This document shows, piece after piece, positions 31,735 to 64,000 of a stretch of 64,000 bases of DNA. The stretch comes from Clostridia bacterium. Its GTDB lineage: Bacteria > Bacillota > Clostridia > Christensenellales > Borkfalkiaceae. Position numbers and translations under genes: made by a program. The DNA is taken from positions 62,001 to 126,000 of the forward strand of contig JAFXHX010000008.1 in NCBI GenBank assembly GCA_017536205.1. The letters are read 5' to 3'. The notes below the pieces were generated by a model, which did not search any database, was not told the origin of the DNA, and saw nothing but the letters and a program-made list of their open reading frames with translations. Positions within the stretch are counted from its first letter, which is position 1. The number at the start of each line of letters is the position of its first letter.

Positions 31735-31763
31735 TTGATAAATATATTTAACTATGATAAAAT
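31735..31763 (+). promoter_or_regulatory. Promoter of the Cys/His-repeat lipoprotein gene
   Basis: TTGATA (31735-31740), 17 bp, TAAAAT (31758-31763) with extended TG. The in-frame ATG at 31754 lies inside this box, so translation begins at ATG 31793, behind TTTAGGAA. Confidence 0.8.
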
Positions 31764-31792
31764 ATTATATATCAATTTTTAGGAATAAAGTT

Positions 31793-43490: not shown

Positions 43491-43551
43491 AAAAAAAGAC
43501 CTTGGAAAAATCCAAGGTCTAATTTTGTTGTTATACAGCTAATTATTATGC
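43491..43551. repeat. 61-bp direct repeat, copy 1 (stop and terminator of the 2548-aa gene)
   Basis: Identical over 61 bp to 51636-51696. It comprises the terminator hairpin AGACCTTGGA / TCCAAGGTCT (43497-43520) with its T-tract on the minus strand, and the stop codon of the giant gene. Confidence 0.95.
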
Positions 43552-46500: not shown

Positions 46501-49500
46501 GTCAAACATACCACCAAAACCGCTATTAGAAGTTGCAGTAAATGGGTCTGATTTTCCGTAACCATTGAAACGGTCAAGAATATAGTAAATACCTTTGAAA
46601 TCGCCTACTTGAATATCATATTCGTGCTTAAGGTCTTGAATAACGTATGCATCGTTATCTGCAAGGCGGAAGTTAATATCGTTGCCAAGAGCATACCAGC
46701 CAAGTACCGCTTTATCAGAAGAAGTATAGTCTAATACACCAGTAAGATCGCGAACTTCGTAAATAATCTTATCCCAATATTCAACGTTAGTAAGTTCTAA
46801 CACTTCGTTATTAGTAATAACGGTTATTGAAATAACGTTATTATTAGAATTATTATATTCAATAGCAGGAATATCAAGTTTACCATCAACAACGTTAATT
46901 GCAACCTTTTCGTTACCAATCGTGTAATATGCAGCTGCAACAGTTGCGTCAAATTCGTAATCAAGGTTTAAAGTTGATTTATTATAAGTTATATTAGAAG
47001 TTACCTTTGTGGGCTCTTCTTCTGAATAAGCAATATTGTTAAAGGTGTAAACTGCAGTTTCGGTGTTAACAACAAGTTGTAATGGAAGTTCAGTAAGAAT
47101 TATACCGTTAGAAACGTTGAGTTCTTCTTCGCCATCAGCGTAAGTTGCGGTTGCAGAAACGATTGTACCTTCGATATTAAATCCAAAATAGTCAACCGAC
47201 TTGAAGTAGTTAACTTCATCACTTACAACAATTTGCTTTTTATTAACGGTAAGAGCGCCTTCATAAGAAAGTTCAACACCGTTAACAGTTGCGGTTACAA
47301 CGTAAGTTGCAGTGCCGGGTTTAACAGCAGTAATAACGTTACCATCAACGGTAGCAACGTTGCCGTTAACTACTATTTCAACGCTTGAAGCATATTCAGA
47401 ATTAATGGTTACGGTTGCAGTTTGGTCAACTTCAAGTTCGCAAGGAACTTCGGTTGAAACGGGCGCACCGTTAATGCTTGCAGACGTATATGCTTTTGCA
47501 GCGCCTGCCCATTTAAGAATGCCGTTATTTACTACCCAATATTTAGTGTTTGTAAATCCGCTAAAGTCACGGCCAGCATCATTTGCCATTTCGGTAGTAC
47601 TACTATAACGAAGAAGGTTCTTCATTTTGTAAACGCCCGATGCAATTGTAGATGCGTCGCCTGCTGTAAGTCCACTAATATCAGCATTAAGTTGAGTAGT
47701 AGTGCCACCAATTCCGTGATAGAAGGTTTTATAAGTAGTAGTATCGTTTGCACCAAATACTAATAAAGCATCAGCAGGATATTTTCCTTCAGAAATTGCA
47801 GTATCAACTTTAGCAGAGGTTGTTGCGAAACCATACCTATAAAGGTCGCTATTAGTAAGGTAAACTACGTTAGAAACATGTTCGTCATAATACTTAACGT
47901 CTGCAGTTGGAGCAACTTCAAACTTACCGCTAGAAGGATTAACAGTGTTATGCGAGCCTGCAGTAAGGAACAACGTAGCGTTTCTAGCAACTTCGTCTCT
48001 ATAATTAATGTTAAGCGATTCGTAGTAAACGTTATTCATTTTAACGTTAGCAAACTCTGTAAACAACGCGTTGGGTGCGTAAACGTTAACGTTACCATTT
48101 GGAGTGTTTAACACGCCATTTGCATCAAGACCGTTAGTCCAAGAGTGAGCAAGTAAATGAATATAAACGTTTTCAACTAAAATCTCTCTATTTGTGTAGT
48201 TATTGCAAAGGTGACCTGCAATAAGAGCAGACGAACCCGATGCAACCATATTAGTATAAGCAACGTTTTTAAATACTGGTGCAAGTTGTTCAGTTACTGT
48301 AACTTGGTGTAAAACACCTTCAACGTAAACGATTTTAAGAGTTCCATCAGTATTCTTTTGAACCATAAAGTTTACAAAGTTATCAACAGTATAACCTTTA
48401 CCATCGAACACACCAACGAAACCACGCGTGTCGGCATGGCCCCAACCACCATCGTGGTTAACGGTACGGTATGCACCTGCTTTAATGGTTTTTTGATTGC
48501 CAAGAAGTAAAACTCTATCTTCATAAGAAGTTACGTAGCCCGTAGTATCGGCACTGATAAGCATGTCAACATCGTTACCAAGTGCAATATATTTCTTATA
48601 CATATTGCCAGCACCACCAGTGTAACTCATTGCTTCAGAATATTCTACGTTATCTTCAATAACGAAATCCCAATATTCAAATGCGTTAAACTTATAGGTT
48701 GCGTTTGCAGTAGTAACGTATGCAACAAACACGTTAGAAGAGTTAGTTTCTGAAACGTAAGTAAAGCCGTTTTCTAAATTGAAATCAACTTTGCCGTTTT
48801 CAGTAATAACGTAACCAGAAATAATATCTCCATCTAAATCGTAGAAGAGTTTATTATCGCTAGCATCATACATAACGGTTTGGTTAACTTCTATAACAGA
48901 TTGAACAACGTTAATAGTTACAACTTTTTCGAAAGACTTGCCACCAAAAGTATAGTTAATGGTTGCAGTGGTTAAGCCTGCGCTTACACCAGTAACATCG
49001 TTGCCATCAACGGAAACGTAATCGTCATTTGCAACAGTTATAGAATTAACAGTTGCATTTGCGCCACCAACTTTAACAGAAATAGCAGTTTCAACGTTAG
49101 TTGAAATGGTTACGTAACCTGCGCTACCTGCAAGTTCAGTTTCGCCAACAACAACGTTTGCAACTTTATCTACTTCGCCTGCCCAAACGGGGCAACCGTT
49201 AACAACTGACCAGTACTTGCTATTTTCAAAAGCAGAAAGGTCGTTATTAGCCTTTGACATTTCGGCATAAGTATTATAGCGGTTAAATCCACTAGTAATA
49301 CGTTTTGCTTTTGTATCATTTTTATTGTCAACTTCAGAATATTTAATAAAGTCGTCTACCTTAAGGTTTTCAGGGTCGAATTCATATTTTTCTTCTGCAG
49401 TTTTATTATATTCATTAAGAACGCTAACAATATCTTCTGGATAACCAATTCTCTTATGCGTTAAAGAACCATCACCATTAATAGTAGTGGTTAAATAAGG

Positions 49501-51192
49501 CATTTCGTTATCGTTAGAAGCAAATACAACTTCATAATTAAGGTTAGTTCCATCGGTAACGTGAGTTTCGCTATAATTAGACATTCCGTAAGAAGATGCA
49601 ATGTATGGCGATACCATATAAACGTTTTCTGTAACACCGAGCACATTACCAACTAAACCTTGGTATGAACCAATACCACCAGTAACAGCACCACCAGTTA
49701 CAGGGTCAGCATAACCTTGACCTTTATAACTACCAATTGAAAGTTTAAGGTTACGGTAATTATTTATATGATTACCATTAGAGTCTAATTCGGTACCATC
49801 GGGTTGATAATCGAACACAACGTTTTTAAAGGTGGTTTCTTCAGTAGAAAACATACCAAATATAGAAACACCGTTAATACCAGGCCTTGGCCTTGCGTAA
49901 ACGTTTTCAACAGTAGCGTTAGAGATTTTGCTTGCAATTATTAAAGCAGTCCAAGCGTAGCCATTATCCCAGAAGTCGGTAACAGCAAGGTTTTTAATAA
50001 CAGCACCACCGTGAACGTTACCAAAAATACCTACGGTTGAGTTGTTGTTGTAAAACTTAAAGTTTTTAATTGCATAACCACGACCGTCGAACGTGCCGGT
50101 AAGACCATGGCTACCCGCAACACCAGCAGTGTCTTTATATGAAGGTGTAAAATTAACGCCTTCAAGGTCGATATCGTTACCTAAAGCGTAGTAACCTTCA
50201 ACGTTTGCTCTATCAACTTGGAAAGTTTGAGCAAATTCTTCAGCAGTGGTAATAACTTTATCTGCAAGAGTGAAGGTAATTTTATAAACAACGTTATCGT
50301 AAACATCAGCGTCGTTACCATCTATAAATAAGTATGCAGTAGCATCACCCGAAGCAATGTTTTGTAAAACTGCGGGGTCGTCTGCAGTTAAAACACCGTT
50401 TACAACTGAAACGGGAATAGAAACTTTGCCAGTAGTGTAAAGTTCGTATTTACCATCTTCAACGTCGAGTTCGAAGAACTTACCAGTATCTTTAGCAACA
50501 ACGGGAGCGATATCGTGCTCGCTTATAATGTTGGTATAATCATCGTAAATGCCAATAATATCTTCGTTGGGGTTTTCTTTGCTTTCTTCTTCTGCGATTG
50601 AAAGTAATGCGGTTTTACGCATTGAAGTAGCATAAGTAGTGTCTGCCCAAATGATTTCATCACCAACTTGAGCGTAAGCCCTTGCTTCCATTTCGATTGA
50701 ATAGAAGTAGTTGAGCGCATCTTCTATACGTTCTTCTTGAACGCCACCAGCTAAAAGCCTGTTTCTGCTATAAGTAACAGCACCGGTGAAGTAGTAAGAA
50801 CCGTTAACAGACTCTCTTGGATAAGCGAACTTAACAGCCGATAATGCAGTTTCGTAAGCGTCGATAGTTAAAGTAGTATCTGCAAAGTCAACGCCAGTAG
50901 CGTTAGCCTTGGGGTACACCAAAAGACCGAAGGTTACACTTTCGCCTTCAGCAACGTTCGCAGTATACCACGCGCCGTTTACGGTTGCAGAGAACTTTAA
51001 GCCGTACGCATCGTCGTTATTAACACCTGTGGGCATACGAACTGCCGTTGTTTGGTTAACAACAAAACTTGGCGATGCGCTAGAATCGTCTGCTTTAGCC
51101 AAGTTCGTTGAAAGCGTTGCAACAACGGCAAATGCCGAGATTGCAAAGACAAACGAAAAGGCTTTTAACAAAATCTTTTTCAATTTAGCCAT
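43546..51192 (-). CDS. Giant secreted repeat protein (2548 aa) with beta-helix and Ig-like modules
   Basis: Signal peptide about 1-34 (ending NLAKA). Residues 40-215 resemble the N-terminal domain seen in other clostridial surface proteins (YGLKFSATV, TFGLLVYP, SIEMEARAY). Four large modules follow near residues 310, 840, 1470 and 2117. Each starts with a lead strand and a YxALGNDID/YITLSNNI-type segment, then a FDGRGY or FDGKGY turn and NVxI runs, a GLUG-like right-handed beta-helix pattern. Bacterial Ig-like (Big) segments lie between them, and modules 2-4 open with a YWD or YFD motif. No catalytic motif, LPXTG or lipobox is seen. Perfect SD (AAGGAGG). Co-transcribed with a 42-aa peptide. 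Confidence 0.88.
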   Translation of the reverse strand: MAKLKKILLKAFSFVFAISAFAVVATLSTNLAKADDSSASPSFVVNQTTAVRMPTGVNNDDAYGLKFSATVNGAWYTANVAEGESVTFGLLVYPKANATGVDFADTTLTIDAYETALSAVKFAYPRESVNGSYYFTGAVTYSRNRLLAGGVQEERIEDALNYFYSIEMEARAYAQVGDEIIWADTTYATSMRKTALLSIAEEESKENPNEDIIGIYDDYTNIISEHDIAPVVAKDTGKFFELDVEDGKYELYTTGKVSIPVSVVNGVLTADDPAVLQNIASGDATAYLFIDGNDADVYDNVVYKITFTLADKVITTAEEFAQTFQVDRANVEGYYALGNDIDLEGVNFTPSYKDTAGVAGSHGLTGTFDGRGYAIKNFKFYNNNSTVGIFGNVHGGAVIKNLAVTDFWDNGYAWTALIIASKISNATVENVYARPRPGINGVSIFGMFSTEETTFKNVVFDYQPDGTELDSNGNHINNYRNLKLSIGSYKGQGYADPVTGGAVTGGIGSYQGLVGNVLGVTENVYMVSPYIASSYGMSNYSETHVTDGTNLNYEVVFASNDNEMPYLTTTINGDGSLTHKRIGYPEDIVSVLNEYNKTAEEKYEFDPENLKVDDFIKYSEVDNKNDTKAKRITSGFNRYNTYAEMSKANNDLSAFENSKYWSVVNGCPVWAGEVDKVANVVVGETELAGSAGYVTISTNVETAISVKVGGANATVNSITVANDDYVSVDGNDVTGVSAGLTTATINYTFGGKSFEKVVTINVVQSVIEVNQTVMYDASDNKLFYDLDGDIISGYVITENGKVDFNLENGFTYVSETNSSNVFVAYVTTANATYKFNAFEYWDFVIEDNVEYSEAMSYTGGAGNMYKKYIALGNDVDMLISADTTGYVTSYEDRVLLLGNQKTIKAGAYRTVNHDGGWGHADTRGFVGVFDGKGYTVDNFVNFMVQKNTDGTLKIVYVEGVLHQVTVTEQLAPVFKNVAYTNMVASGSSALIAGHLCNNYTNREILVENVYIHLLAHSWTNGLDANGVLNTPNGNVNVYAPNALFTEFANVKMNNVYYESLNINYRDEVARNATLFLTAGSHNTVNPSSGKFEVAPTADVKYYDEHVSNVVYLTNSDLYRYGFATTSAKVDTAISEGKYPADALLVFGANDTTTYKTFYHGIGGTTTQLNADISGLTAGDASTIASGVYKMKNLLRYSSTTEMANDAGRDFSGFTNTKYWVVNNGILKWAGAAKAYTSASINGAPVSTEVPCELEVDQTATVTINSEYASSVEIVVNGNVATVDGNVITAVKPGTATYVVTATVNGVELSYEGALTVNKKQIVVSDEVNYFKSVDYFGFNIEGTIVSATATYADGEEELNVSNGIILTELPLQLVVNTETAVYTFNNIAYSEEEPTKVTSNITYNKSTLNLDYEFDATVAAAYYTIGNEKVAINVVDGKLDIPAIEYNNSNNNVISITVITNNEVLELTNVEYWDKIIYEVRDLTGVLDYTSSDKAVLGWYALGNDINFRLADNDAYVIQDLKHEYDIQVGDFKGIYYILDRFNGYGKSDPFTATSNSGFGGMFDGKGYAMYNFLSLYRYSNSLTTGADGLFGKLYSTETTTPVVKNFALLDMITTSGSSVLADCVSNVGVQRIENVYLANKAHSYVQLNAITATNVTSAGSFYNNSAYALAGIVRNVGHTYMTNVVAKFKNQANFSYNVYPGNSADTTQQGSLASTYNKVDETQTIASYDANYLSNVIIVSPQFLTTAYMYSTVGHAAALDTNGRGEKSYVAYGNDFRTAQCSAATPQSYTADGSSINKAADNIDDLVAGNISALASKGMYRFENVYHYNSEGDLRSANGNRENPSIITLLEEQFANNSLYTTNTVMDKIAINWAGIAGTSAQITVNGNKVDNALSVYSDAGELNVAVTAGNLNLTVSSIAVANGEVATESGSKLTVANVGTTLVTVTYAGGDTTLTKSFTLNVMAAPIIVDSQVPYYSLIKQVDFDFADEIVSAKYVTGETETEFDITYGLIIPEVAFDADYISLSTATQEYRFTNLVLDNEGNENSSYVLYDAKGNGFTYTFDEGATVEGAWANGKEVNVVDGNIVLTRPEVYGENVYTVDVLLNNGVVKFTNVNYFDHVVDSAIEWLDIFGYIPTEQDGILEDYITLSNNISFKVDEVTEDIKDYVVYVNFNVGVSSDGVAWAPGAYLATKNGYSQSWGSTWAGFAGYIDGRGYGVDYISGFDKNSYGTLYMVGGAFNSINLLKGHDVIMKNVAFTNIIGDSGSIFAQHLHGTEKHLVLENVYISLMCQAYKAGTETVNIGTEEEPNNVTFNKLGNANAYSPSGLIPNGRQDGIKLINVLYESNYCSQVAGAGATNITGALYKPELGVNPADVDANCTNVIFVTKQLLSSQLANYNIKKGIDEVSTASGEFVAWKRGTSSYAANNASALGVLTYGANETTGTYNMYQGYKDTATYDLVLADLTNTTYGTYQIWAKDDLTNVTAGDTSFITNGGMYKFANVLRYDDKNKLAADKDFAPSILANFTSSVWNVNVENGTISWARYAQA
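46748..46784. repeat. 37-bp identical coding block, copy 1
   Basis: Identical to 55001-55037. It encodes the start of the EYWDKIIYEVRDL module shared with the neighbouring giant gene. Confidence 0.9.
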
Positions 51193-51332: not shown

Positions 51333-51635
51333 ACTTTCCCTCCTGTTTTAACAAGAATTATAATTTTTTACACAATAAGCCCATTAAAACATAATTATAA
51401 AATTACACAGTATTATTTTATCACTGATTATAAGCGTTGTCAACCCTTTTATCAGTTTATTTTTTAAAATATTTAACAATTTTATAATATTATTATAATA
51501 TGGTTTTTTTAAAGCGATATTTTAGCGATAATTTTTGATTTTTGGGCAGTAAACGAGCGAGATTTAATATCAATATTTATTATATTATATTTAATTTTAT
51601 AAATACTATTCCCCTATCCTTATTATATTATAAAT
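51333..51635. other. AT-rich intergenic region with the promoter of the peptide-giant operon
   Basis: About 300 bp without a gene on either strand. It contains one good minus-strand promoter (51415-51443) and many chance TATAAT-like strings around 51480-51500 and 51580-51630. I see no other structured element. Confidence 0.7.
51415..51443 (-). promoter_or_regulatory. Promoter of the 42-aa peptide / 2548-aa protein operon
   Basis: Minus strand: TTGACA (51438-51443), 17 bp, TAAAAT (51415-51420) with an extended TG. Leader about 75 nt. Confidence 0.8.
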
Positions 51636-51696
51636 AAAAAAAGACCTTGGAAAAATCCAAGGTCTAATTTTGTTGTTATACAGCTAATTATTATGC
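51636..51696. repeat. 61-bp direct repeat, copy 2 (stop and terminator of the 2130-aa gene)
   Basis: Identical to 43491-43551. It carries the terminator hairpin (about 51642-51665) and the stop codon of the second giant gene. Confidence 0.95.
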
Positions 51697-54600
51697 ATTA
51701 GCAAGGCTAGCCCAAGAAATAGAGCCGTTTACTGCATCTACTTTCCAAACAGTTGAAGTGAAGTTTGCAAGAACTGAAGGAGCATAAGTCTTATCTTCTG
51801 CAAGTTTAGCCTTAGTGTCGTAACGGATAACGTTAACCATCTTATACATACCACCGTTTGCTACCTTAGAAGTGTCACCAGCAACTAAAGTTGAAAGGTT
51901 ATCGTAATCCCAAACTTGGTAAGCACCTGCGGCACCTGCGGTAATTAAATCGTAAGTTGCATCTTGCTTATAGCCTTGATAGAACTTGTAAGTACCTTTA
52001 GTTTCGTTAGCACCGTAAGAGATTACGCCGTATGCATCAGTGTTTTTAACGTGATATGGAGCGCTACCACGAACGAACGGAACGAACGAGCCACTAGCAG
52101 TTGAAAGCGTATCAATATTCTTTTTAGCATCTGCATCGCCACCAGCGAACGAGCCTGCAATAAGTTGTTTAGAAACAACTATAACGTTCGAGCAGTTAGC
52201 GTCGATTGTTGCAACGTTAGTTTTTGCAGTGGGTTTAAAGATTGCACCAGTAATAGTGGTTGCACCAGTACCGGTTACTTGCTCGTTAACAAGTGATTCG
52301 TATAAGAAGTTGGTAAGCTTAATTTGTTCTTGCCACTTATCGTAAACAACGTAACCACGAGCACCTATAAGACCGTTTGGCGAGTATGACTTACCATTAA
52401 TGAAGTTATAGGTAACGTAATTATCACCAGCAACAGAAAGACAATCACCTTCAGCAGCAGCGTTGCACAAAAGATTTAAGTAAACGTTTTCAACGTTAAG
52501 GTTGTTGGTTTCAAATTCGTCACAAACTAAATGCTGAGCAAGCACCGAAGCACTATCTGCAATAACGTTAGTGAACGCAACGTTTTTAATAGTAACGTCG
52601 TGACCTTTAGTTAAGTTGATAGAGTTGAATACGCCACCAGTTAATTTAAGGCCTAAAATGTTACCATCTTTATCACGATTGTAGTCAAAGCCGTGAGCAT
52701 TTTCAACTGCAAAGCCACGACCATCGAGATGACCAGCAAAGCCTGCCCAGCTTTCTGCCCAAGATTGACTAAAGCCATTTTTAGTTACAAGGTAAATGCC
52801 AGTGTGGAAAGGAGTGTCGCCAATAGGAGTAGACGTCTTATCATCCCAGTAACCGTTACCGTTGTGGTAAATAGCAACGTGAGCAGCATAGTCCTTAATA
52901 TCGTCGGTTATAGCGTCAACTTTGAAGTTGATGTTGTTTGCTAAAGCAATAAACTCTTCAGATACTTTAGAACCGTCGCTTGCGGGGGTTTGACCAAAGT
53001 AGTCAAGCCATTCGATAGCAGAAGTGATAACTACGTCGAAATATTTAACGTTGTTAAGTTTAACAATACCATCGGTAAAGTATGCGGTTAATACAAACTC
53101 GTTAGAAGAAGGCATTTTAATTTCAGGAAGAATAATTTTGCCATCATCAATTTCGAGTGCAAGTTCACCGCTACCTGCCGACATGGTTGCTAAAACAAGG
53201 TCTCTGTCACCAAAGTCATATTGTAATCCACCATTTGCAAGGTAAAGAACTTCGGTATCAATTTCGGTTGCATCGTTATCAAGTTTAATAATGTTAGTAA
53301 ATCTAAACTCTTGATACTCAGTTGAAAGCGCAATATAGTCTGCATCAAACGCTGCGTCGGGAAGAACAATACCGTAAGAAATATCAATTTCGGTTTCAGT
53401 TTCGCCAGTAACGTATTTAGCAGAAACTATATCGTTGCTAAACGCGTATGCAACGTGATTGATTGATGCGTAGTAATAAACTGCATCTTCAACAGTGAGA
53501 GGATCACCTAACACGTTAAGAGTAAACGTTTTGGTTAAAATAGTTTCGCCTGCTTTGTAGGTAACGATAATATCTGCACAACCAGAGTTAACAAGAGTTA
53601 AATAGCTACCATTTACTTTTGCAACGAATTCGTTGCTTGATTCAAGTGAAACTAAGCTTAATGAGCTGTTGCCAGTGCCAGAAACTGGATTTACTTTAAC
53701 TTTGCCAAGTTTTACGTGAACGTCGATTTCATCAGCAACAATAGTATCGCCAACCTTAACGTTAGTTACTTCAGCAGATTTACCCTTCCAGTTAATTGCA
53801 TATTCGCCATCGGTTGTGTTAACGTCGTAGAACGAGTTGGTTGCAAATCTTTGTAATAAAGGTAAGGTTTCGTTAGTTTCGTTTCTGTTATGAGCAATAA
53901 GATGACTTAAACCATTGTAGTGATATACGTTTTTGAACTTGTAAATACCTTTGGTTGCTAACGAAGATATATCACCTGCTTCAATACCGGTAAGGTCGTC
54001 GTATGCCGTTTTATATCTATTTATACCATTACTATCTTCGTAAGTCTTGCTAGTGTCGTAAGGAAGAAGGGCACGGCTTGATTGTTCATCGTTAGAAGTG
54101 TCGAAACCATAAGCAGCATAACTCTTTTCACCACGGCCATTTGTATCTAATGAACCAGGTTGACCAACACGGTCGTCAAGATATGCTACAGTGGGTAACG
54201 TGCTTGAAATAAGCAATACGTCAGAAACATAAGTTTCATCGTAAGATGCTATAGTTTGATCTTCAAACACATAGTTGTATGCCGAAGCAAACGAGCCTGC
54301 AGCAAGATTTGAAGTACCATCACCTACATAGCCAGGTAATACACCCCAAGCGTTTGCGGGTGACCATTCGGTTTGTTTAAGAACAATGTTAGACATATAA
54401 GTATGACCAACGTTTCTTACAATACCTGAAATGAAGTAAGATGCAACTGAAAGTTGTTGAGTCATTACGTGAGTAGTTGCATTGTAAGAGTATCCCGAAT
54501 AGAAAGTACCCTTGTTAGAAACATAGATATTTTCAATGTGTTGAACGCCTACGTTAGAAACGGTATCGGCAATGATGGGCGAGTCGCACGACATCATCAT

Positions 54601-57600
54601 ATCAAGAAGTGCAAAGTTCTTAACTACGGGAGTAATTTCTTCGGTTGAGTAAAGTTTGCCAAATAAACCAGCACTCATAGTGTATAAGTGAGTTGAGTTA
54701 GCAAAAAGGTCAACGTAATTATACATTGAATAGCCTTTACCATCGAACACACCACCAAAGCCGTTTACAGAAGTTGGAGTAAAGCCGTCTGCTTTTTTAC
54801 CATCATCAAAACGGTCAAGAAGATAATAAATACCGTCAGTGTATTGACCGTTTTTGTTATCTACAAGTTGCCATTCGTGCTTAAGATCGGTAATCACATA
54901 TTCATCGGCATCGGCAATACGGAAGTTGATATCGTTGCCAAGAGTGTACCAGCCGGTAACTACACCGTCTTTAGAAGTGTAGTCTAAAGCACCACTAAGG
55001 TCGCGAACTTCGTAAATAATCTTATCCCAATATTCAATATTGTTAAAGGTTATAGTATTGTAACTGGTGTTAACAACAAGTTTAACAAGGTTGCTTGCGC
55101 CGTAAGTTGCCTTAGGAGCAGTAACACCAAAAATCTTATTATCTTTAACGGTTAATTCAACAGGGTCTTGACCATCAACAATAAGTTGCGCATCAAGCAC
55201 TACCCTATCGTCTAAATCGTCGTAAACGATAGAACCATCGTATGCATTGTATAAAACAACGTTATCTTCGGTAGAAGGTGCTGCCTTAACGTAAATAGTA
55301 ATAGGAACGATGTATTCAGATTCGTTATAAGTGAAGGTTACGGTTGCAACAGTTTGACCTGCTTGAACACCGGTAATAGATGCACCACTTGCGGTTAAGA
55401 GTGAATTATCACCAGAAACTACGCTAGTAATTTCGATATTATCAGTGCCGTAAACTGCGCTAAACGCCAAGGTTTCGTCAATATCGATTTCACCGTAAGT
55501 TACAATATTTTCGGTTTCGCCAAGTTTTAAGTTAACGTCGATTAAAGGTTTAATTACAAAGGTTTCGGTAACGCCTAATTCTTCGTTTGCAACGGTAACC
55601 GTAACAGGTTGAGCCGAGTATTTAGCAACGGTAACGCTTGCACCGTCGATAGTTAAAATACCGGTATTATCACTAGAAGTAATAGTAGTTCCAGGAACGA
55701 GTACGCCGTATTTAGAAAGACCAACGGTAACTGATTCGCCTTTAACAACTTCAACAGCCGACTTAGGAGTTACACCGTCAACCGAAAGGGTTACACCGTC
55801 TTGTTTGAAGGTGTGCCATACGGGAACGCCGGTAGAAGTATTCCAGAATCTAGAATCAAACGAAGTTAAATCGTTTTCTGCTTGAGCCATTTGATTAGCG
55901 TTATTATATTGCTTAATGCCGGTATATCTAAACGCACCTATTGAAGACGTTTCTTTGTCGTACTGAATTTGTTGGTTTTCAGAGTTGAACGAAGACATAT
56001 CTTCACCAAAGTAAGTGGTGTTAATATTTTCAGCGTATGCAATATACCATTGATAATAATTACCGTTTGCATCGTTTAAAACGGTACCAGGTCTGGTATT
56101 TAAATCTTTACTTCCCCTATAGTTTCCTAAAGCGAAGCCAGAAAGAACGTAAGTATCTTTAAAGAGTGATTCTTGAATTTCTTTCTTAGGATTAATGGTT
56201 GCTTTAGGACTAGCAACAAGAACGCCGTGAGCATAACCATTGACAGCATATCGAGAACTATTAACGTCGTAAGGAGTTTCGTTATTATATTCAACAACAA
56301 CGTTGGTAAGATTTATATTTTCGCCAGCTTGATAGAATAAGCCTTGAAGGTCATACGAGTCAGACCTATAGCTAATATAAACGTTTTCTAAATCGCCGTA
56401 GCCAAGGAATGCAAGCGAGCTACCCCTATAAGTATAAATATTGGTAATAGCAACGTTTTTCAAAACTGCATCTTTAGAGAAGTGGTGGAATAAACCAACA
56501 CGGTTACCTTGGTGTGCAACAGTAAAGTTCTCGGTGTCAATGTTAGAAATAACGTGGCCGTTACCATCGAAGGTTGCAGCAAACGATAATTCTTCAGCGT
56601 GGTGATATGCAGAAGCAGATGCCGAGTGATAAACTACGAGCGTAGATGCATCGATATCGTTTAAAAGGTAAACGTATGCTTCTTTACGATATGGGTCGTT
56701 ATATTCGGCTTTAGAAGCACACACGTCTTCGCGCTTATCGTCAGGACCTTTACCTTCGTTTGCTTTTGCGTTTGCCCTTTCACGTTTTGCAAGCATTTCT
56801 GCCGAAGCGCGAAGTTCAACAGCGTCTTTAAGGTCTTCAACGGTTGAAACGAAAGCACCAGCTGCACGAACTGAAACTTCGTATATTTCAGTTTTTGAAC
56901 CTACTAAAATAGTAGTATCGGTAAAGTCGTGTGCGTTAGCAACAACGCCGGTAATGTAGTTTTCGTTAACGTTAAGAACATTTTCACCTTGCCAAGCATC
57001 GATAATTTCGGTTTCAGTACCCCAAATGAAGTTATCAATAGTTAAGTTGGTGTTAAGGTCGCTTTCTTCTTTATAAGTACCCATGTAAGTTGAGAAGTAT
57101 TCAACTTTACCTTCTTTCTTAGCAACGGGACGAATAATTCTTGCATTAAAGTTTTTAAGGTAGGTTTTACCACCTACTTCGTAACCGAACGAAATTACGG
57201 TAGTACCAACCGATTTACCAACTATTTTGCCATCTTCTATATAAGCAATATCTTCGTTGGCACTTGAAGCAACGTTAGCAGGGATTTCTGCGCCACCGTT
57301 AATAGTTACGGTAGGAACAAAATCAAAGGTGTTAACGTAAGACGAGCCTTCGAACGAAGCCCTAGTATAAAGTTCAATGTCTTTAGCGATGTTACCATTT
57401 ACGTAGAACGAGAAGTTATCTTGAACGGTAACTTTAATCGTTTTAGACATAAGGAAGGTGTTAGAAGCGTCTTTTGTTCTCCACGAAGCGCTAACAACAA
57501 CATCTGCCTCACCGTTTTCTAAAGTAGTGAGTAAACCGTCGTTAGTAGCGGTTACAACGCTAGCATTGCTAGAAGTAACAGTGAACGTTGCGTCGGTATA

Positions 57601-58083
57601 GTCGGTACGATTATTAAATCTTACGATGGGAACGAAATTGAAGGTATCGTTGTTAGATAAAATAATTTCGTCTTTGATGCCACCAAGAACGTCAACTTCA
57701 GGTGTTTGACCACCGAAAGAAACGTTTAATTCGCACTTCTTAACTAAATCGCCACAAGTTGCAACGATGTTGGTTATACCTTCGCTAATTGCTTCGATTT
57801 TACCAGTAGTTTGGTTAATAGTTGCAATATCAGCATTTTCAGACGACCAAACGACTTTATTAGTAGTGTTGGTAGTTGTTGCTGAAAGCGTAAAATAATC
57901 GCCTATGGTAAGAGAAAGAGCACTGCGCGCTAAAGTTAAAGTAGCAGCGGGAGGTTGCGGAATATAAATATCTGGTTGACCGTCGTCAGTTTCTTCCTCC
58001 TTCTTACAACCGGTGCCTACCGCCGTTAATGCGACGGTAAGCGATAATACGAGAACAAGTAATCTTTTAAATAATTTATTCAT
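51691..58083 (-). CDS. Giant lipoprotein (2130 aa), paralogue of the 2548-aa protein
   Basis: Start at ATG 58083, because GGAGG lies 6 nt before it and would abut the alternative ATG 58089. Lipobox VGTGC (Cys near residue 26), then an acidic KKEEETDDG spacer. Three Ig-like (Big) segments follow, then a beta-helix-like module near residue 420 (DATFDGNGHVISNI-type) and more Ig-like repeats. Two C-terminal modules (near 1020 and 1685) match modules 3 and 4 of the 2548-aa protein, for example YWDKIIYEVRDL, DTNGRGEKSY and TSAIEWLDYFG. No enzyme motif is seen. Last gene of the ABC-DUF4838 operon. Likely a cell-envelope anchored binding protein. Confidence 0.88.
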   Translation of the reverse strand: MNKLFKRLLVLVLSLTVALTAVGTGCKKEEETDDGQPDIYIPQPPAATLTLARSALSLTIGDYFTLSATTTNTTNKVVWSSENADIATINQTTGKIEAISEGITNIVATCGDLVKKCELNVSFGGQTPEVDVLGGIKDEIILSNNDTFNFVPIVRFNNRTDYTDATFTVTSSNASVVTATNDGLLTTLENGEADVVVSASWRTKDASNTFLMSKTIKVTVQDNFSFYVNGNIAKDIELYTRASFEGSSYVNTFDFVPTVTINGGAEIPANVASSANEDIAYIEDGKIVGKSVGTTVISFGYEVGGKTYLKNFNARIIRPVAKKEGKVEYFSTYMGTYKEESDLNTNLTIDNFIWGTETEIIDAWQGENVLNVNENYITGVVANAHDFTDTTILVGSKTEIYEVSVRAAGAFVSTVEDLKDAVELRASAEMLAKRERANAKANEGKGPDDKREDVCASKAEYNDPYRKEAYVYLLNDIDASTLVVYHSASASAYHHAEELSFAATFDGNGHVISNIDTENFTVAHQGNRVGLFHHFSKDAVLKNVAITNIYTYRGSSLAFLGYGDLENVYISYRSDSYDLQGLFYQAGENINLTNVVVEYNNETPYDVNSSRYAVNGYAHGVLVASPKATINPKKEIQESLFKDTYVLSGFALGNYRGSKDLNTRPGTVLNDANGNYYQWYIAYAENINTTYFGEDMSSFNSENQQIQYDKETSSIGAFRYTGIKQYNNANQMAQAENDLTSFDSRFWNTSTGVPVWHTFKQDGVTLSVDGVTPKSAVEVVKGESVTVGLSKYGVLVPGTTITSSDNTGILTIDGASVTVAKYSAQPVTVTVANEELGVTETFVIKPLIDVNLKLGETENIVTYGEIDIDETLAFSAVYGTDNIEITSVVSGDNSLLTASGASITGVQAGQTVATVTFTYNESEYIVPITIYVKAAPSTEDNVVLYNAYDGSIVYDDLDDRVVLDAQLIVDGQDPVELTVKDNKIFGVTAPKATYGASNLVKLVVNTSYNTITFNNIEYWDKIIYEVRDLSGALDYTSKDGVVTGWYTLGNDINFRIADADEYVITDLKHEWQLVDNKNGQYTDGIYYLLDRFDDGKKADGFTPTSVNGFGGVFDGKGYSMYNYVDLFANSTHLYTMSAGLFGKLYSTEEITPVVKNFALLDMMMSCDSPIIADTVSNVGVQHIENIYVSNKGTFYSGYSYNATTHVMTQQLSVASYFISGIVRNVGHTYMSNIVLKQTEWSPANAWGVLPGYVGDGTSNLAAGSFASAYNYVFEDQTIASYDETYVSDVLLISSTLPTVAYLDDRVGQPGSLDTNGRGEKSYAAYGFDTSNDEQSSRALLPYDTSKTYEDSNGINRYKTAYDDLTGIEAGDISSLATKGIYKFKNVYHYNGLSHLIAHNRNETNETLPLLQRFATNSFYDVNTTDGEYAINWKGKSAEVTNVKVGDTIVADEIDVHVKLGKVKVNPVSGTGNSSLSLVSLESSNEFVAKVNGSYLTLVNSGCADIIVTYKAGETILTKTFTLNVLGDPLTVEDAVYYYASINHVAYAFSNDIVSAKYVTGETETEIDISYGIVLPDAAFDADYIALSTEYQEFRFTNIIKLDNDATEIDTEVLYLANGGLQYDFGDRDLVLATMSAGSGELALEIDDGKIILPEIKMPSSNEFVLTAYFTDGIVKLNNVKYFDVVITSAIEWLDYFGQTPASDGSKVSEEFIALANNINFKVDAITDDIKDYAAHVAIYHNGNGYWDDKTSTPIGDTPFHTGIYLVTKNGFSQSWAESWAGFAGHLDGRGFAVENAHGFDYNRDKDGNILGLKLTGGVFNSINLTKGHDVTIKNVAFTNVIADSASVLAQHLVCDEFETNNLNVENVYLNLLCNAAAEGDCLSVAGDNYVTYNFINGKSYSPNGLIGARGYVVYDKWQEQIKLTNFLYESLVNEQVTGTGATTITGAIFKPTAKTNVATIDANCSNVIVVSKQLIAGSFAGGDADAKKNIDTLSTASGSFVPFVRGSAPYHVKNTDAYGVISYGANETKGTYKFYQGYKQDATYDLITAGAAGAYQVWDYDNLSTLVAGDTSKVANGGMYKMVNVIRYDTKAKLAEDKTYAPSVLANFTSTVWKVDAVNGSISWASLANA
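55001..55037. repeat. 37-bp identical coding block, copy 2
   Basis: Identical to 46748-46784, in the homologous module of the paralogous gene. Confidence 0.9.
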
Positions 58084-58096
58084 ATTCATCCTCCTA

Positions 58097-60397
58097 TTAT
58101 AAAGTAAGTAACCAGTTAAGTATTAAGCCTTCACTTGAACAGTTGTAACTCATAAGCGGATACTGAACTGATATTTCGTAAAGTCTATTCTTGTAATATC
58201 TAAACTTTTCAAGCGAAAGTTGACTGGTGCCTTTTTCTGCACCATCACCGTAAAGTTTAAGAACGATGTATAAAGGAGTCATCGATTCAACGTCGATACG
58301 GTCTTTTAAAACGAGATAAAGGTTATTATTAGTAACTTGATAATGAGAAATCTCTTCAATCGCTTTGTCAAATAATCCAACCCAACCTTCAACCATTTGT
58401 AACGGCCAATATACAGTAGATTTTACCCAGCTATCGTGCGCGCTACTCTTATTAGGACGCATTCCGTATTCTGAATAAGTGGTTTGAACGTGTGTTTGAT
58501 AAAGTTTTAATATATTAAGCATAGTATCAGACGCATCTTGATACATAGCGTCAAAATACCTTTGAGTAAGAGCGTCGTAATCTTGTGATGAATCCCACAT
58601 AAGTTGTGATTCCATCCAACAAGCATAGCTTTGGAACGAAGTTGCGTTATCGCCGTAGTCTTGAGATTCAAGGAATACGTATTGAACGTCTTTATACGCA
58701 AAGAATTGGAAAAGGTCGCCGTTAAAGAACGCAAGTGAATCGTGAGGGAAAATAGTAGCGTGAGCGTAAGTAGGATAACCCCAGAACCAGAAATAATCAA
58801 TACAAGCATCCCAAGCGTCGAACATATCTATACCTATTTGGTTTTCGGGAGCGTATAACGCCGTGTAATAGTTAAAGTAACGAGTGTCAGCGTAATACAT
58901 ACCAACACCATCGTCAGCAATTACTTGGTCGTTACAAGGAACGTATTTACCTTCTGCTTCACTGTAAACTGCAGGTGGAGCACACAAAGTATTGTAAGCA
59001 AACGAAACGACGTGGAAATCTTCTCTCTTATAAGCTGCGTTTTCAGGTTTGTTCATCCAATCGCGAACGTATTTGTTAACAGCGTTTAAAAGTTTAATAA
59101 CTGAACCTGAAGACGTAAAGTTTTCAGCTTCACGTTCAATCGTGCATTGTTCACATCCACATAAAGCACCTAAGTCTTCCATAGTAATGGTTACCGTATT
59201 ACGGAAAGGATATTCTTCGGGAGGGAATGCAACGAGCGAATATTCAATCATTTCTGCACAGCGTTTTGCAAGCGCTCTAAACGAATCGGCGTTACCTCTT
59301 GCAGTGTAGCATATTTGGTCACCCGTAGTAGCGTACCAGTCTTCATGAGTGTGTTTATCGTCTGAACGGTTTGGGTTATCTGCATTTTTTATAGTCCAAC
59401 CTGCAACGTCGCGCATATTCGTAGAATTAAACTCTAAATCACCATAGCTATCAATCCAAGATTGTGGAACGCGAGCTGCGTCGGGCTCATATTCTTCAAA
59501 ATAATATTTTAAATAGTCAATGGGTTTACCGTCAACGTCAGTTGCTCTAGGAAGATATTCCATTGCGTTGTGAATATAACCATTTTGAGCAGCAAGTGAT
59601 TTACGGTCGTGAACTATAGGAAGTAAGTCTTCTTGGTGACCACCGTTACCAACGTTTAAACGCCATTTACGGTATGCAACGTCTTGTGAAGTAATATCTT
59701 CAACGAGTGGGTCAACGGTCTTCATACCGTCGAAACCAACACCGTACCAAGCAACGTTATACGACCTTCTTTCAATGTCAGGTGCGTCCATAACGGTTAA
59801 GTTTAAAAACTTAGCGTCGGTAACGTTTTTATCGATTGTCCAACAGTTTCTATAATAATATTGAAAATTAAAATAGATTTCAAGAAAATTATAAACTGCT
59901 TGAATTACACCAGTTCCATAAGGTGCGTTTAAAAATACGTTTTGGTTTTTCGTGCGAATAAGATATCCGTCGTAATCAAGAGAATCCATATCTTCTTCAG
60001 TAACGTTAAGGTTAGCCGCTTGATATAAACGGTTATCTGCTAAAGATATATATTTACCGGTTGCAACAGTTTCGGTAAGGTCTTCAGGAAGTTCATTTTC
60101 GTACTTTGCAGTAATTGAAATACCAGTTGCCCTTTTGAAAAGCAATTGTAATTCTTCTTTTGCAATTTTAACGTAACTATCAACAACGTCAGGAAGAAGT
60201 ATCGTATAATCGCTAAGCCCGTCTTTAACAAGCCAAGTGTCAGTTTCAACTATATCGAACTCGTGAACGCCGTCGTAAACGAAAGGTGTAAACTCGGCGT
60301 AAGTCGTTGCTTCGTCTTCTTTTTTACAAGCAAATACGGATAAGGAAATGCTTAAAATAAGCGTAGAAAGAACAAGTAATTTAATTAATCTTTTCAT
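58097..60397 (-). CDS. DUF4838 family lipoprotein
   Basis: 766 aa. Lipobox SVFAC (Cys near residue 24). The N-terminal third has the GH-associated beta-alpha domain that precedes DUF4838 (LLFKRATGISI, YGTGVIQAVYNFLE). The DUF4838 core, near residues 200-560, has ERRSYNVAW, ITMEDLGALCGCEQC and YADTRYFNYYTALYAPENQ. These proteins are found in polysaccharide utilisation loci and are thought to be glycoside-hydrolase-like; no reaction is proven. SD AGGAGG 9-10 nt before ATG. Lies between the 1108-aa and 2130-aa genes in the same operon. Confidence 0.92.
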   Translation of the reverse strand: MKRLIKLLVLSTLILSISLSVFACKKEDEATTYAEFTPFVYDGVHEFDIVETDTWLVKDGLSDYTILLPDVVDSYVKIAKEELQLLFKRATGISITAKYENELPEDLTETVATGKYISLADNRLYQAANLNVTEEDMDSLDYDGYLIRTKNQNVFLNAPYGTGVIQAVYNFLEIYFNFQYYYRNCWTIDKNVTDAKFLNLTVMDAPDIERRSYNVAWYGVGFDGMKTVDPLVEDITSQDVAYRKWRLNVGNGGHQEDLLPIVHDRKSLAAQNGYIHNAMEYLPRATDVDGKPIDYLKYYFEEYEPDAARVPQSWIDSYGDLEFNSTNMRDVAGWTIKNADNPNRSDDKHTHEDWYATTGDQICYTARGNADSFRALAKRCAEMIEYSLVAFPPEEYPFRNTVTITMEDLGALCGCEQCTIEREAENFTSSGSVIKLLNAVNKYVRDWMNKPENAAYKREDFHVVSFAYNTLCAPPAVYSEAEGKYVPCNDQVIADDGVGMYYADTRYFNYYTALYAPENQIGIDMFDAWDACIDYFWFWGYPTYAHATIFPHDSLAFFNGDLFQFFAYKDVQYVFLESQDYGDNATSFQSYACWMESQLMWDSSQDYDALTQRYFDAMYQDASDTMLNILKLYQTHVQTTYSEYGMRPNKSSAHDSWVKSTVYWPLQMVEGWVGLFDKAIEEISHYQVTNNNLYLVLKDRIDVESMTPLYIVLKLYGDGAEKGTSQLSLEKFRYYKNRLYEISVQYPLMSYNCSSEGLILNWLLTL

Positions 60398-60414
60398 AAT
60401 CTAATTTCCCTCCT

Positions 60415-63400
60415 TTATGAAACGTGAATGGTAAACGTTGCAAGCGTAAAGTTACCAACTGAATCGTATGCGTAAATACGAACTTCATAATCGCCTTTTC
60501 TGTTAATCGCACAAGTATCGGTTATTTCAACAACGTCTGACAAAGACTCAACTTCGATATAATCAAAAGGCTCTGCAGTATGAATGAGATAACCGCGATG
60601 TTTATGTCTAATCATAACGCTAACGATTAAATCTTCTAATAAAGTATTATCGTCGCTAACGGTAAACGGAATTGTAAAGGTTTCGCCAATACCAACGTTC
60701 ATAACCGACTCTGCAACGATGCCGTTACCAAGAGTAATAACGGGCGCTTTATCGTTAATTACTTTAATGTTATAAGTATCCCTTGCCTCTTTAGTAAGTG
60801 CAGTGGTGTTTTGTTTAGAAACGTCTCTAACATATAAAATAACTTGATAGGTAGCGTATTCATTAAGCACTAACGTGTAGTCTTTAGTTGGGTCGTTAGC
60901 AATACCGTCGCAAACTACTTCGTTACCGTTTTCATCTAAAACTTTTACGTGATTACCCGTGTCTTTATTAATTATTTCAAGCGAAACGTAATTTGTCGGG
61001 TTTTTCTTACACGCAACACATTGACAATTATCTTTACATTTTTCGTAATTGAAATAACGAGTAGGAGTTAAAATATCCGCAACAGACGGAGCGTAAATAG
61101 TTACGCTATCACCTATTATATGGTTACCATGGTCACGCGTAATGTAATAGTTAGACGTGGTTTTATCTGAAGTAAGGTTACTACTAAACACAACGTTAGC
61201 AAGTTTATCAGGTCTAAAGGTAACCGTACCGGTAACGTCAACTAATTCAATATCAAGATAAGCAAGTTCGGTAGTAAAGTCTATAAGGTAATCGACTTCA
61301 GTTTCGCCGTAAGTTGCTTTTCTATAGTTGTGGTCGTAGGTAAACATTTTATCCATGGTGTTTAAAAGCGAAATGTCTGCTAATAAAACACCGTCTTGAG
61401 TTTGGTCGGTAATAAAGTAATATTTATCGTTTTGTTCGTAAATGGTAAATACCGCTTTGTTTTCAGTGTTATAAATATCGGTTAAAATAATATTTATAGC
61501 TGAAATGCTACCAACGTTACCAGATTTTATATAGGTGTAGAACGTGAAGTTGAAAGAGCCAACTTGGATTGGGTTAACAAACGAAATTACGTTCGTACCT
61601 TCATTTACAGTATCGTAAGTAAGGTTACGACCAACTACTCCATTAAACGGAACGTCACCTATAAAATAATTTTGTGGAATAAGCGCAGTACCACCGCCAA
61701 CGTTAACGACATTTGCAACGTCGCTAAGTGCATATGGAGCGTCTTGACCAGGCATTGCTTCAGTTGCAACGTATTTAAATTGTAATGAAGTTGCAGTTGA
61801 AGAAACAACGAATTTTTCAATATCGGTAACTTCGGTCCATTCACCTTCACCGTCGTATTGAACGTAAACTTTCGATGCTACAGGAGTAGCAAAGTCAACG
61901 TATTTATACGCTGATAAAGGTTTAAGTTCGTAAGTAAAGCCTGCTAAGTAATTGCGATAAGCAAACGGTTTTTCTACAAAACGAATAATTCCGTTAGAAA
62001 CACATTCTACGCTATAAGTTAACACTTTAGAAACAGCGTTATCGCTAATAGCGTAAGTTATTTGATAAGTACCGGTAGTTGACGGAATAAACTCTAAAGT
62101 TTCAGGGTCGATATTATAAGTTTTACCTTTGCAGGTTGCAGTAATATCGATTTTTAACGCGCTATCTAAGTTATACGTTGAAAGAGTATAAGCAGGAAGC
62201 GTTACCGTTTCACCTGAATATATTTGAGTAAGTTTATCAGTTTCAAAGGTAAGAGTACCTATATGATTAAGTGCTTTAGATGAAGTAATACCACTAACGT
62301 CAACGGGAATAACGTCGAAATAAGACTTACCAACGTTGCCTGCATAGTCTTTTGCAGAATATTCAACGGTATAAACTTCGTTATCGCGCACGTTAAACAT
62401 ACCACCGGTTATAGTAATCGGGGTTCTTTGATTATCGCTATAATAATCTTTATAAACGTTAACGCGAATATCGGTTGCAAGGTTAACGTCGTAAACGTTA
62501 GCAGTAGGAAGAACGAAGTTTTCGCCTATTGCACAGTAAACGCTGTTGTTTTCGGTAAGGTCAACGTCAACGTAAACGTCGGGCGCTCTTTCATCTTTAT
62601 AGTTTTCTTCCCAGTTAGTACCGTTAAAGTTTTTAATAAGTTCGGTACCAGACATATCGCCAACGCTGGTAATATCAACTTGATAACCAGTGCCTTCATA
62701 GTTTTCAACTTTTAAAGACACGAAAACTTCGCCCGTGGTGAAACCTTGGAACATTTTAACGCCGGTAGTATAACAAGCAGGGTTTTGAAGTTGTGAAATT
62801 AAAATATCTTTAACACCGGTACTAACGTAAGTATAGTTATTCTTAAAGTCATATTTTAAGTAATAAATACCGTTTCTTTGAGCACTACCACCCGATTGAG
62901 CACCTTGGGTAGAACCGAAGTGGTTAACGTGTCTTACACCGTCGATATAAGCAACAACACGGTCCCAACGGCCAGTCAACGTTTCGTTAACGATTAAACC
63001 ACTATCTTGTTGAGAGTTTGTACCCGAACGAATATAACCGTAACCGTTTTGGTTTTTAACGCAAAGGCGATAGAAAACGTAAATAGACGGATCGTATGCG
63101 TCGGTTAAAGTAACGGTAACGAACTCTGCGTTGGTTTTGTATATACCACTATTTGCTAATAAATCGTGGTCGTAACCTTCGGGGTCGAAACTAATAATAT
63201 CAACAAGCCCTTCTTTATTAAGGTCGATAGGTTTATTGAAAACGAATTCACAACCGTCGTTAAGGTTAACTGAAATACCATCTTCTTTAGAACCTAAGGG
63301 ATTTTCTGGGCTAGAAGCGGTTATAGTACTACCATTTTCGTTAGAAAGGTAGAAATATTCGCTCATAACGTCGAACGTATCGTAAACGGTAATAGTTTTA

Positions 63401-63741
63401 CCCAAACTATCAACAAACTTATACGAAACGGTGTACTCACCTACTTGGTTAAGTACGTGGCCGATTTCGTCGTTTGCTTCGTAAATCATACCGTTAGGAT
63501 AGGTTATTGAACCCTCGGTAATAACGAGAGAATTACCATAGCCGTCAATAGCAACACCGGTAAGCCTATCGTCAAGAAGTAAGGTCGAGTTGAAAGCATA
63601 CTTTTCTTCAATTTGGGTTAATTCTATTTCTTTAGAATTAGCGTTAACGCTAGAAATGTTAGCAACGCCGAAACCCAAACCGAACATCATAATTGCAGAT
63701 AGGCAAATAACTGCAATTTTTTTGTTGATTGTAGTTTTCAT
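60415..63741 (-). CDS. Secreted 1108-aa protein with Ig-like domains and a Cys cluster
   Basis: Signal peptide (about 1-34, ending SVNA). Residues 60-130 and the C-terminal 150 residues are Ig/cadherin-like (EYTVSYKFVDSLGK; KGDYEVRIYAYDSVGN). Residues 130-380 look like a beta-sandwich (LamG/CBM-like). Near residue 905 a compact CKDNCQCVACKK cluster interrupts the beta-rich pattern. It has no lipobox or LPXTG. In the operon it is the first secreted gene after the sugar ABC permease and just before the DUF4838 gene, so it may bind the same extracellular polymer. SD AAAGGAG. Confidence 0.85.
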   Translation of the reverse strand: MKTTINKKIAVICLSAIMMFGLGFGVANISSVNANSKEIELTQIEEKYAFNSTLLLDDRLTGVAIDGYGNSLVITEGSITYPNGMIYEANDEIGHVLNQVGEYTVSYKFVDSLGKTITVYDTFDVMSEYFYLSNENGSTITASSPENPLGSKEDGISVNLNDGCEFVFNKPIDLNKEGLVDIISFDPEGYDHDLLANSGIYKTNAEFVTVTLTDAYDPSIYVFYRLCVKNQNGYGYIRSGTNSQQDSGLIVNETLTGRWDRVVAYIDGVRHVNHFGSTQGAQSGGSAQRNGIYYLKYDFKNNYTYVSTGVKDILISQLQNPACYTTGVKMFQGFTTGEVFVSLKVENYEGTGYQVDITSVGDMSGTELIKNFNGTNWEENYKDERAPDVYVDVDLTENNSVYCAIGENFVLPTANVYDVNLATDIRVNVYKDYYSDNQRTPITITGGMFNVRDNEVYTVEYSAKDYAGNVGKSYFDVIPVDVSGITSSKALNHIGTLTFETDKLTQIYSGETVTLPAYTLSTYNLDSALKIDITATCKGKTYNIDPETLEFIPSTTGTYQITYAISDNAVSKVLTYSVECVSNGIIRFVEKPFAYRNYLAGFTYELKPLSAYKYVDFATPVASKVYVQYDGEGEWTEVTDIEKFVVSSTATSLQFKYVATEAMPGQDAPYALSDVANVVNVGGGTALIPQNYFIGDVPFNGVVGRNLTYDTVNEGTNVISFVNPIQVGSFNFTFYTYIKSGNVGSISAINIILTDIYNTENKAVFTIYEQNDKYYFITDQTQDGVLLADISLLNTMDKMFTYDHNYRKATYGETEVDYLIDFTTELAYLDIELVDVTGTVTFRPDKLANVVFSSNLTSDKTTSNYYITRDHGNHIIGDSVTIYAPSVADILTPTRYFNYEKCKDNCQCVACKKNPTNYVSLEIINKDTGNHVKVLDENGNEVVCDGIANDPTKDYTLVLNEYATYQVILYVRDVSKQNTTALTKEARDTYNIKVINDKAPVITLGNGIVAESVMNVGIGETFTIPFTVSDDNTLLEDLIVSVMIRHKHRGYLIHTAEPFDYIEVESLSDVVEITDTCAINRKGDYEVRIYAYDSVGNFTLATFTIHVS

Positions 63742-63779
63742 ATAGTCTCCTTTAAAATTAATGTTTTCAAAGCGTAATA

Positions 63780-64000
63780 TTATTCTTTAATACCACCCAT
63801 TGAAATATTGCCTAAAAGTCTATCTTTAACGCAGATAAACAATATAATCATAGGTAATGCAACGGTCATCGTCGCAGCAATTTTTGCAGGTGTACCAGTC
63901 ATACCCTCAATGTTTGACCCTTGAATAACCTGTTGAACTGCCAAAGATAAAGTTGGGTGCGAAGGTAAGTATAATAAAGGTGTAGCATAGTCGTTCCAAC
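63780..64000 (-). CDS. Carbohydrate ABC transporter permease (MalG/LplC-like), 5' end outside window
   Basis: Only the C-terminal 73 residues are present, in frame to the window end. They include the EAA-loop-adjacent segment WNDYATPLLYLPSH, one TM helix (IAATMTVALPMIILF) and the C-terminal GNISMGGIKE, which is typical of the second permease of sugar (often oligosaccharide) ABC importers. It starts the operon part seen here. 38 nt separate it from the 1108-aa gene. Confidence 0.9.
   Translation of the reverse strand, partial: WNDYATPLLYLPSHPTLSLAVQQVIQGSNIEGMTGTPAKIAATMTVALPMIILFICVKDRLLGNISMGGIKE

Follow-up and report, generated by a model that had tools for sequence, protein, structure and literature searches.

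A predicted six-gene glycan-utilization operon joins a GH163-type lipoprotein and large extracellular proteins to a sugar ABC transporter in small-genome Clostridia

Introduction

At the end of a 64,000-nt stretch of a Clostridia genome (G000:C6:62001-126000, hereafter the window), part of a sugar transporter gene is followed on the minus strand by contiguous genes for an Ig-like secreted protein, a DUF4838 lipoprotein, and a giant lipoprotein. Do these genes make up one system that captures a polymer and imports its products, as an earlier note on the window proposed, and how much of such a system would be new? The genome is 1.39 Mb in 14 contigs and 94% complete. Our main reading, to which we give a probability of roughly 70%, is a six-gene glycan-utilization operon in a Clostridia lineage that has small genomes and sporulation genes, predicted to combine surface cleavage, capture, and ABC import.

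Results

Operon Structure

Judged by sequence, the four genes described earlier are the 3′ part of a six-gene operon with the order solute-binding protein (SBP), permease, permease, Ig-like protein, DUF4838 protein, giant lipoprotein (Table 1). This is supported by a single promoter and a single terminator, with gaps of 7–118 nt across the whole run, the widest lying between the SBP and permease genes. The short gaps and single transcription unit proposed by the earlier note agree with this, the three gaps in the window measuring 7 (giant/DUF4838), 17 (DUF4838/Ig-like), and 38 nt (Ig-like/permease); its strong SD sites hold for most of the operon genes, where clear sites are seen. In the giant lipoprotein gene there is no spacing between AGGAGG and the annotated ATG, and the proteins of several relatives begin with the corresponding MNK; the true start is probably the third codon (Met3). 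At the end of the gene run there is just one good minus-strand terminator, AGACCTTGGA-tttt-TCCAAGGTCT-TTTTTTATTT, which closes the unit as the note had expected, although at 51665..51642 and not at 51636.

The earlier note also proposed extending the sequence upstream to find an SBP and a regulator. Extension of the sequence recovered an SBP lipoprotein gene and a further permease gene, but no regulator gene adjoins the operon: upstream is a sporulation-gene cluster that we take, by eye, to be spoVA / sigF / spoIIAB / spoIIAA and that ends in its own terminator (68319..68302) before the operon promoter, and downstream is a paralogue of the giant protein. GTGCAC sites close to the promoter were rejected as candidate operators for lack of conservation.

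Table 1. Positions of the operon, its signals, and the neighboring giant paralogue. Positions above 64,000 are extended coordinates (the window, then L003).
Feature	Position	Strand	Basis or remark
Sigma-A-type promoter, TTGACA-17-TATAAT	68187..68159, beyond window	-	12/12 consensus match
Leader hairpin	68036-68072, beyond window (L002 18036-18072)	-	Invariant 21-nt block at 68046-68066
Solute-binding lipoprotein (SBP)	65938-67959, beyond window	-	Profile vs. PDB sugar-binding SBPs; invariant Cys20
UgpA-like permease	64773-65819, beyond window	-	BPD_transp_1
ABC permease, UgpE/MalG-like, 3′ part	63780..64000, runs on to 64760 beyond window	-	BPD_transp_1
Secreted Ig-like protein, 1108 aa	60415..63741	-	Ig-like and other predicted beta-rich regions; partner of DUF4838
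DUF4838 (GH163-type) lipoprotein, 766 aa	58097..60397	-	Pfam DUF4838 E 8.9e-10
Giant Big_2 lipoprotein, three internal repeats	51691..58089 (start probably 58083)	-	Big_2 E 1.7e-7
Intrinsic terminator at operon end	51665..51642	-	10-bp stem, then T-run
Second giant paralogue, 2548 aa, four repeats; not in operon	43546..51192	-	37% identity to the operon's giant lipoprotein

Two other features were seen apart from the operon: a 1242-aa BspA-type leucine-rich-repeat protein at 31754-35482 (LRR_5 E 3.5e-53), and a Lysine riboswitch upstream of dapA/dapB-like genes at L003 11877-12042.

Transporter Components

Both permeases match BPD_transp_1 (E 5.9e-12 and 3.7e-10) and are CUT1-like. The SBP sequence itself has no Pfam match. 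Against the PDB, the profile of its family hits sugar-binding SBPs (best 9h0n, E 2e-20) and, more weakly, xylo-oligosaccharide, MBP1, and chito-oligosaccharide binders; all sequences in the SBP alignment keep the lipobox cysteine. Like many CUT1 systems, the operon has no ATPase gene. An ATPase of UgpC/MsmX type is encoded at G000:C1:64422-65573 (469.5 bits against a curated cut-off of 432), so that the SBP, two permeases, and shared ATPase of a CUT1 sugar ABC transporter are all present in the genome.

The DUF4838 Protein

The DUF4838 domain named by the earlier note and the Big_2 domain are both real Pfam matches, at the E values in Table 1. The DUF4838 match is above cut-off and covers model positions 98-323 of 325. 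All 29 aligned members carry the domain, 15 also match Glyco_hydro_67N, and nine Glyco_hydro_20b. In published annotation, a DUF4838 protein is assigned to the endo-beta-N-acetylglucosaminidase family GH163 (PMC9870897), in which BT_1035 is also listed (PMC12834350); a GH163 enzyme from Bacteroides thetaiotaomicron cleaves LacNAc antennae off complex N-glycans (PMC10154615). On this homology, the operon's central enzyme falls in a known family of sugar-cutting enzymes, and the view that no classical glycoside hydrolase is visible and that any activity is undescribed therefore does not hold; relatives moreover have a GH67N/GH20b-like N-terminal domain.

W354, D408, Y468, and P475 are invariant in the alignment, and E407, beside D408, is a glutamate in only 16 of the 29 members. 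Four cysteines (C363, C413, C415, and C418) each occur in 28 of 29 members, and their joint loss in the one exception points to one metal or disulfide site. That exception, L052 2478-4382 (G056), is a natural test of the putative site. We found no solved structure related to the DUF4838 catalytic domain; there is a weak profile match to alpha-glucuronidase structures, and a structure prediction made with one relative in the alignment gave a pLDDT of 32.

The Ig-like and Giant Proteins

The Ig-like assignment is sub-threshold in the window protein (P0003), and Bact_surface_Ig-like is matched by 8 of 20 members of its family. Counted from the hit tables, 38 of the 40 family matches of at least 200 bits directly adjoin a DUF4838 gene, on its upstream side, and one of the two exceptions (G002:C171) stops at a contig end. 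Outside family f1, the search matched short Ig repeats only. The genomic position of these genes thus indicates that the Ig-like protein is nearly always a partner of DUF4838. It has a cleavable-type signal peptide, and its sequence shows no lipobox, LPxTG, or C-terminal membrane segment; the anchoring assumed earlier has no visible signal here.

The giant lipoprotein combines a lipobox and an N-terminal Big_2 domain with three imperfect repeats. Among 20 aligned members of its family, Big_2 occurs in 16 and HL_N-beta in 14, and none matches a Pfam family of beta-helix type, the fold that the earlier note had proposed for the giant protein. One repeat was modeled with AlphaFold2; the model is poor (mean pLDDT 42.6) and has no PDB match below E 0.001. 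The identity between this protein and the paralogue at 43546-51192 extends over about 1,900 aa. The paralogue has no lipobox at its N-terminus and has its own promoter-like site (51443..51415), placing it, by sequence, outside the operon.

Recurrence and Co-evolution of the Cassette

DUF4838 relatives were found in 25 of the 101 genomes searched. The complete order, from SBP through to the giant protein, recurs in about 20 loci within the same family; some cassettes carry two DUF4838 genes in tandem, and several diverged copies occur per genome in some cases. The same order is seen in L005 (Clostridia bacterium RGIG3957, from roe deer cecum), on a contig that starts within the first permease gene; GH130 and phosphohexomutase genes follow this cassette. 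L005 is the only real relative among the named genomes. L006 was considered as a second and rejected, since only residues 2-57 match, probably spuriously.

Pairwise distances among 17 cassettes are correlated across the five proteins tested (r 0.80–0.92, with 0 of 2,000 permutations reaching any of these values), and the highest correlation is that of the Ig-like with the DUF4838 protein (r = 0.92). Paralogous cassettes from one genome (L043 and L044) are 22–37% identical, far more diverged than orthologous cassettes from different genomes (L044 and L045; 65–81%). Together with the correlated distances, this indicates a cassette that is inherited as a block and whose parts co-evolve.

A Conserved Leader Hairpin

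The block TTCCTTTGGGGGAATTATGCG is located between the promoter and the SBP start. Five genomes of the genus (G000, G003, G004, G005, and G007) have exactly one copy each, identical at every position. It is upstream of the operon's SBP gene and beside spoVA-like genes in all five, even though the SBPs of G004 and G007 share only about 30% identity with that of G000. A search allowing one mismatch found the block nowhere else among 297 genomes sampled from the order, a reversed-pattern control gave no matches, and no Rfam family matches it. A hairpin fold is predicted in all five genomes (z -1.9 to -3.0). Pairing is kept in 98% of cells, through one-sided changes only; no compensatory changes on both sides were found in the leader hairpin, and covariation therefore gives no independent support for the hairpin. 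The block may function at the RNA level, serve as a DNA operator, or be a leader-peptide start (GGGGG-AATT-ATG), and we infer a regulatory role.

Neighboring Genes and Substrate Clues

The same genome has matches to GH20, GH130, and NagB (glucosamine-6-phosphate deaminase). The best NagB match (G000:C6:187665-188393) is over the cut-off but contains two in-frame TAA stops, which could reflect decay, an assembly error, or a boundary effect. GH38 and GH125, mannosidase families that are typical of N-glycan processing and intracellular in the pneumococcal-type pathway, have no match in this 94% complete genome. Genes near the relatives' cassettes include GH130 (directly downstream in two of them), GH29, GH20C, GH123, GH38, GH31, GH36, GH1, and GH94.

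At L040 (G008:C109) and L037 (G005:C15), DUF4838 genes lie in apparent rhamnose-catabolism clusters, recognized from an FGGY-family kinase (Pfam) and, by eye, isomerase- and aldolase-like genes. These neighbors suggest other substrates within the DUF4838 family, which is probably multi-specific. N-glycan was rejected as an established substrate because neighbors across the family are too diverse.

Discussion

The mechanism that we propose begins at the cell surface, where the lipid-anchored DUF4838 (GH163-type) enzyme would cut a HexNAc-containing or otherwise complex glycan, both activity and substrate being predicted by homology and context. The secreted Ig-like protein and the giant Big_2 lipoprotein may keep the substrate near the enzyme. 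The released oligosaccharide would be captured by the SBP lipoprotein and imported through the two CUT1 permeases, with the shared MsmX/UgpC-type ATPase supplying the energy. Capture, cleavage, and import thus remain the best reading of the earlier proposal, in a unit that recurs and whose parts co-evolve; what the analysis does not support in that proposal are the anchoring of the Ig-like protein, the beta-helix fold, and the undescribed activity.

Two alternatives depart from this reading. The transporter genes and the large-protein genes could be separate transcripts that merely adjoin, and the 118-nt gap after the SBP gene, like the permease–Ig-like gaps of 171–429 nt in some relatives, leaves room for internal promoters. 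Given that the permease–Ig-like gap here is 38 nt and contains no terminator, that gene order is conserved, and that distances co-vary between the transporter and the surface proteins, we regard separate transcription as quite improbable. It is somewhat less improbable, yet still unlikely, that the DUF4838 and giant proteins serve mainly for adhesion to mucus, fiber, or other cells, with DUF4838 as a binding protein and co-transcription only coupling attachment to nutrient supply. Two very large Big_2/repeat proteins do stand side by side, the giant paralogue next door is separately promoted, and E407 is not conserved; against this, DUF4838 keeps its four invariant residues, its four-cysteine set goes missing only as a whole, in one sequence, and throughout the family the protein has kept its linkage to a complete sugar transporter.

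If the operon is one for glycan utilization, as we prefer, the leading guess for its substrate is N-glycan or another GlcNAc/Man glycan, cut by DUF4838 as a GH163 endo-beta-N-acetylglucosaminidase and imported by the transporter in the manner of the pneumococcal system discussed below. DUF4838 is assigned to GH163 (PMC9870897), GH163 acts on complex N-glycans (PMC10154615), GH130 lies directly downstream of two relatives' cassettes with GH29, GH20C, GH123, and GH38 among other neighbors, and the host genome has GH20 and GH130. The guess is nonetheless a doubtful one, with the odds against it, in view of the rhamnose-type neighbors in G008 and G005, the presence of GH31, GH36, GH1, and GH94 in the family neighborhoods, and the lack of GH38 and GH125 in the host genome.

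Gram-positive polysaccharide utilization loci (gpPULs) are strictly defined by an enzyme, a transporter, and a regulator, and Gram-positive gut bacteria are described as having no separate surface glycan-binding protein in such loci (PMC10318527). The present operon resembles examples such as the mixed-linkage beta-glucan locus of Blautia producta (PMC10318527) in joining a surface enzyme, here a predicted one, to an ABC carbohydrate transporter without SusC/SusD. It differs in that the enzyme is, by homology, of DUF4838/GH163 type, that two very large extracellular proteins are a fixed part of it, and that there is no adjacent regulator gene. On its predicted functions the operon works like a gpPUL, but lacking the regulator gene it is not filed as one under the strict definition.

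By analogy, the closest functional counterpart is the N-glycan system of Streptococcus pneumoniae, EndoD with the transporter ABC-NG (NgtS-NgtP1-NgtP2), in which an endo-hexosaminidase is likewise paired with an SBP and two permeases that import the released glycan (PMC5215778); here these roles are assigned by homology. The pneumococcal GH85 enzyme is encoded apart from its transporter and works with GH92, GH38, GH125, and GH29 helpers (PMC5215778), whereas the GH163-type enzyme lies inside the transporter operon. The B. thetaiotaomicron GH163 enzyme shares its family with the operon's enzyme by annotation of a DUF4838 protein, and differs from it in that the latter is a Gram-positive lipoprotein within an ABC operon, with predicted activity. 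GH67 alpha-glucuronidases and GH20 hexosaminidases resemble DUF4838 relatives in the N-terminal domain (Glyco_hydro_67N and Glyco_hydro_20b-like, respectively); the catalytic domain of DUF4838 is another one and has the conserved four-cysteine set.

As the central enzyme falls in a described family, the kind of system, a Gram-positive glycan-utilization locus, is known. We found no published description of its unusual partner proteins or of the conserved leader hairpin. On sequence comparison the hairpin is new, its 21-nt block occurring once and unchanged in each of five species of the genus. More tentatively, and at less than even odds, the Ig-like proteins would form a new family of obligate partners that work outside the cell with DUF4838/GH163-type enzymes, as Gram-positive counterparts of surface glycan-binding proteins, and with new cis-regulatory control by the leader hairpin in the genus would define an undescribed class of Gram-positive operon for glycan uptake.

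These results would place GH163-type enzymes in Gram-positive transporter operons and show two large extracellular proteins kept beside such an enzyme and its ABC transporter, in contrast to the reported absence of a separate surface glycan-binding protein from the utilization loci of Gram-positive gut bacteria (PMC10318527). The operon offers a defined unit for how small-genome Clostridia may harvest complex glycans, with the leader hairpin as a candidate regulatory element.
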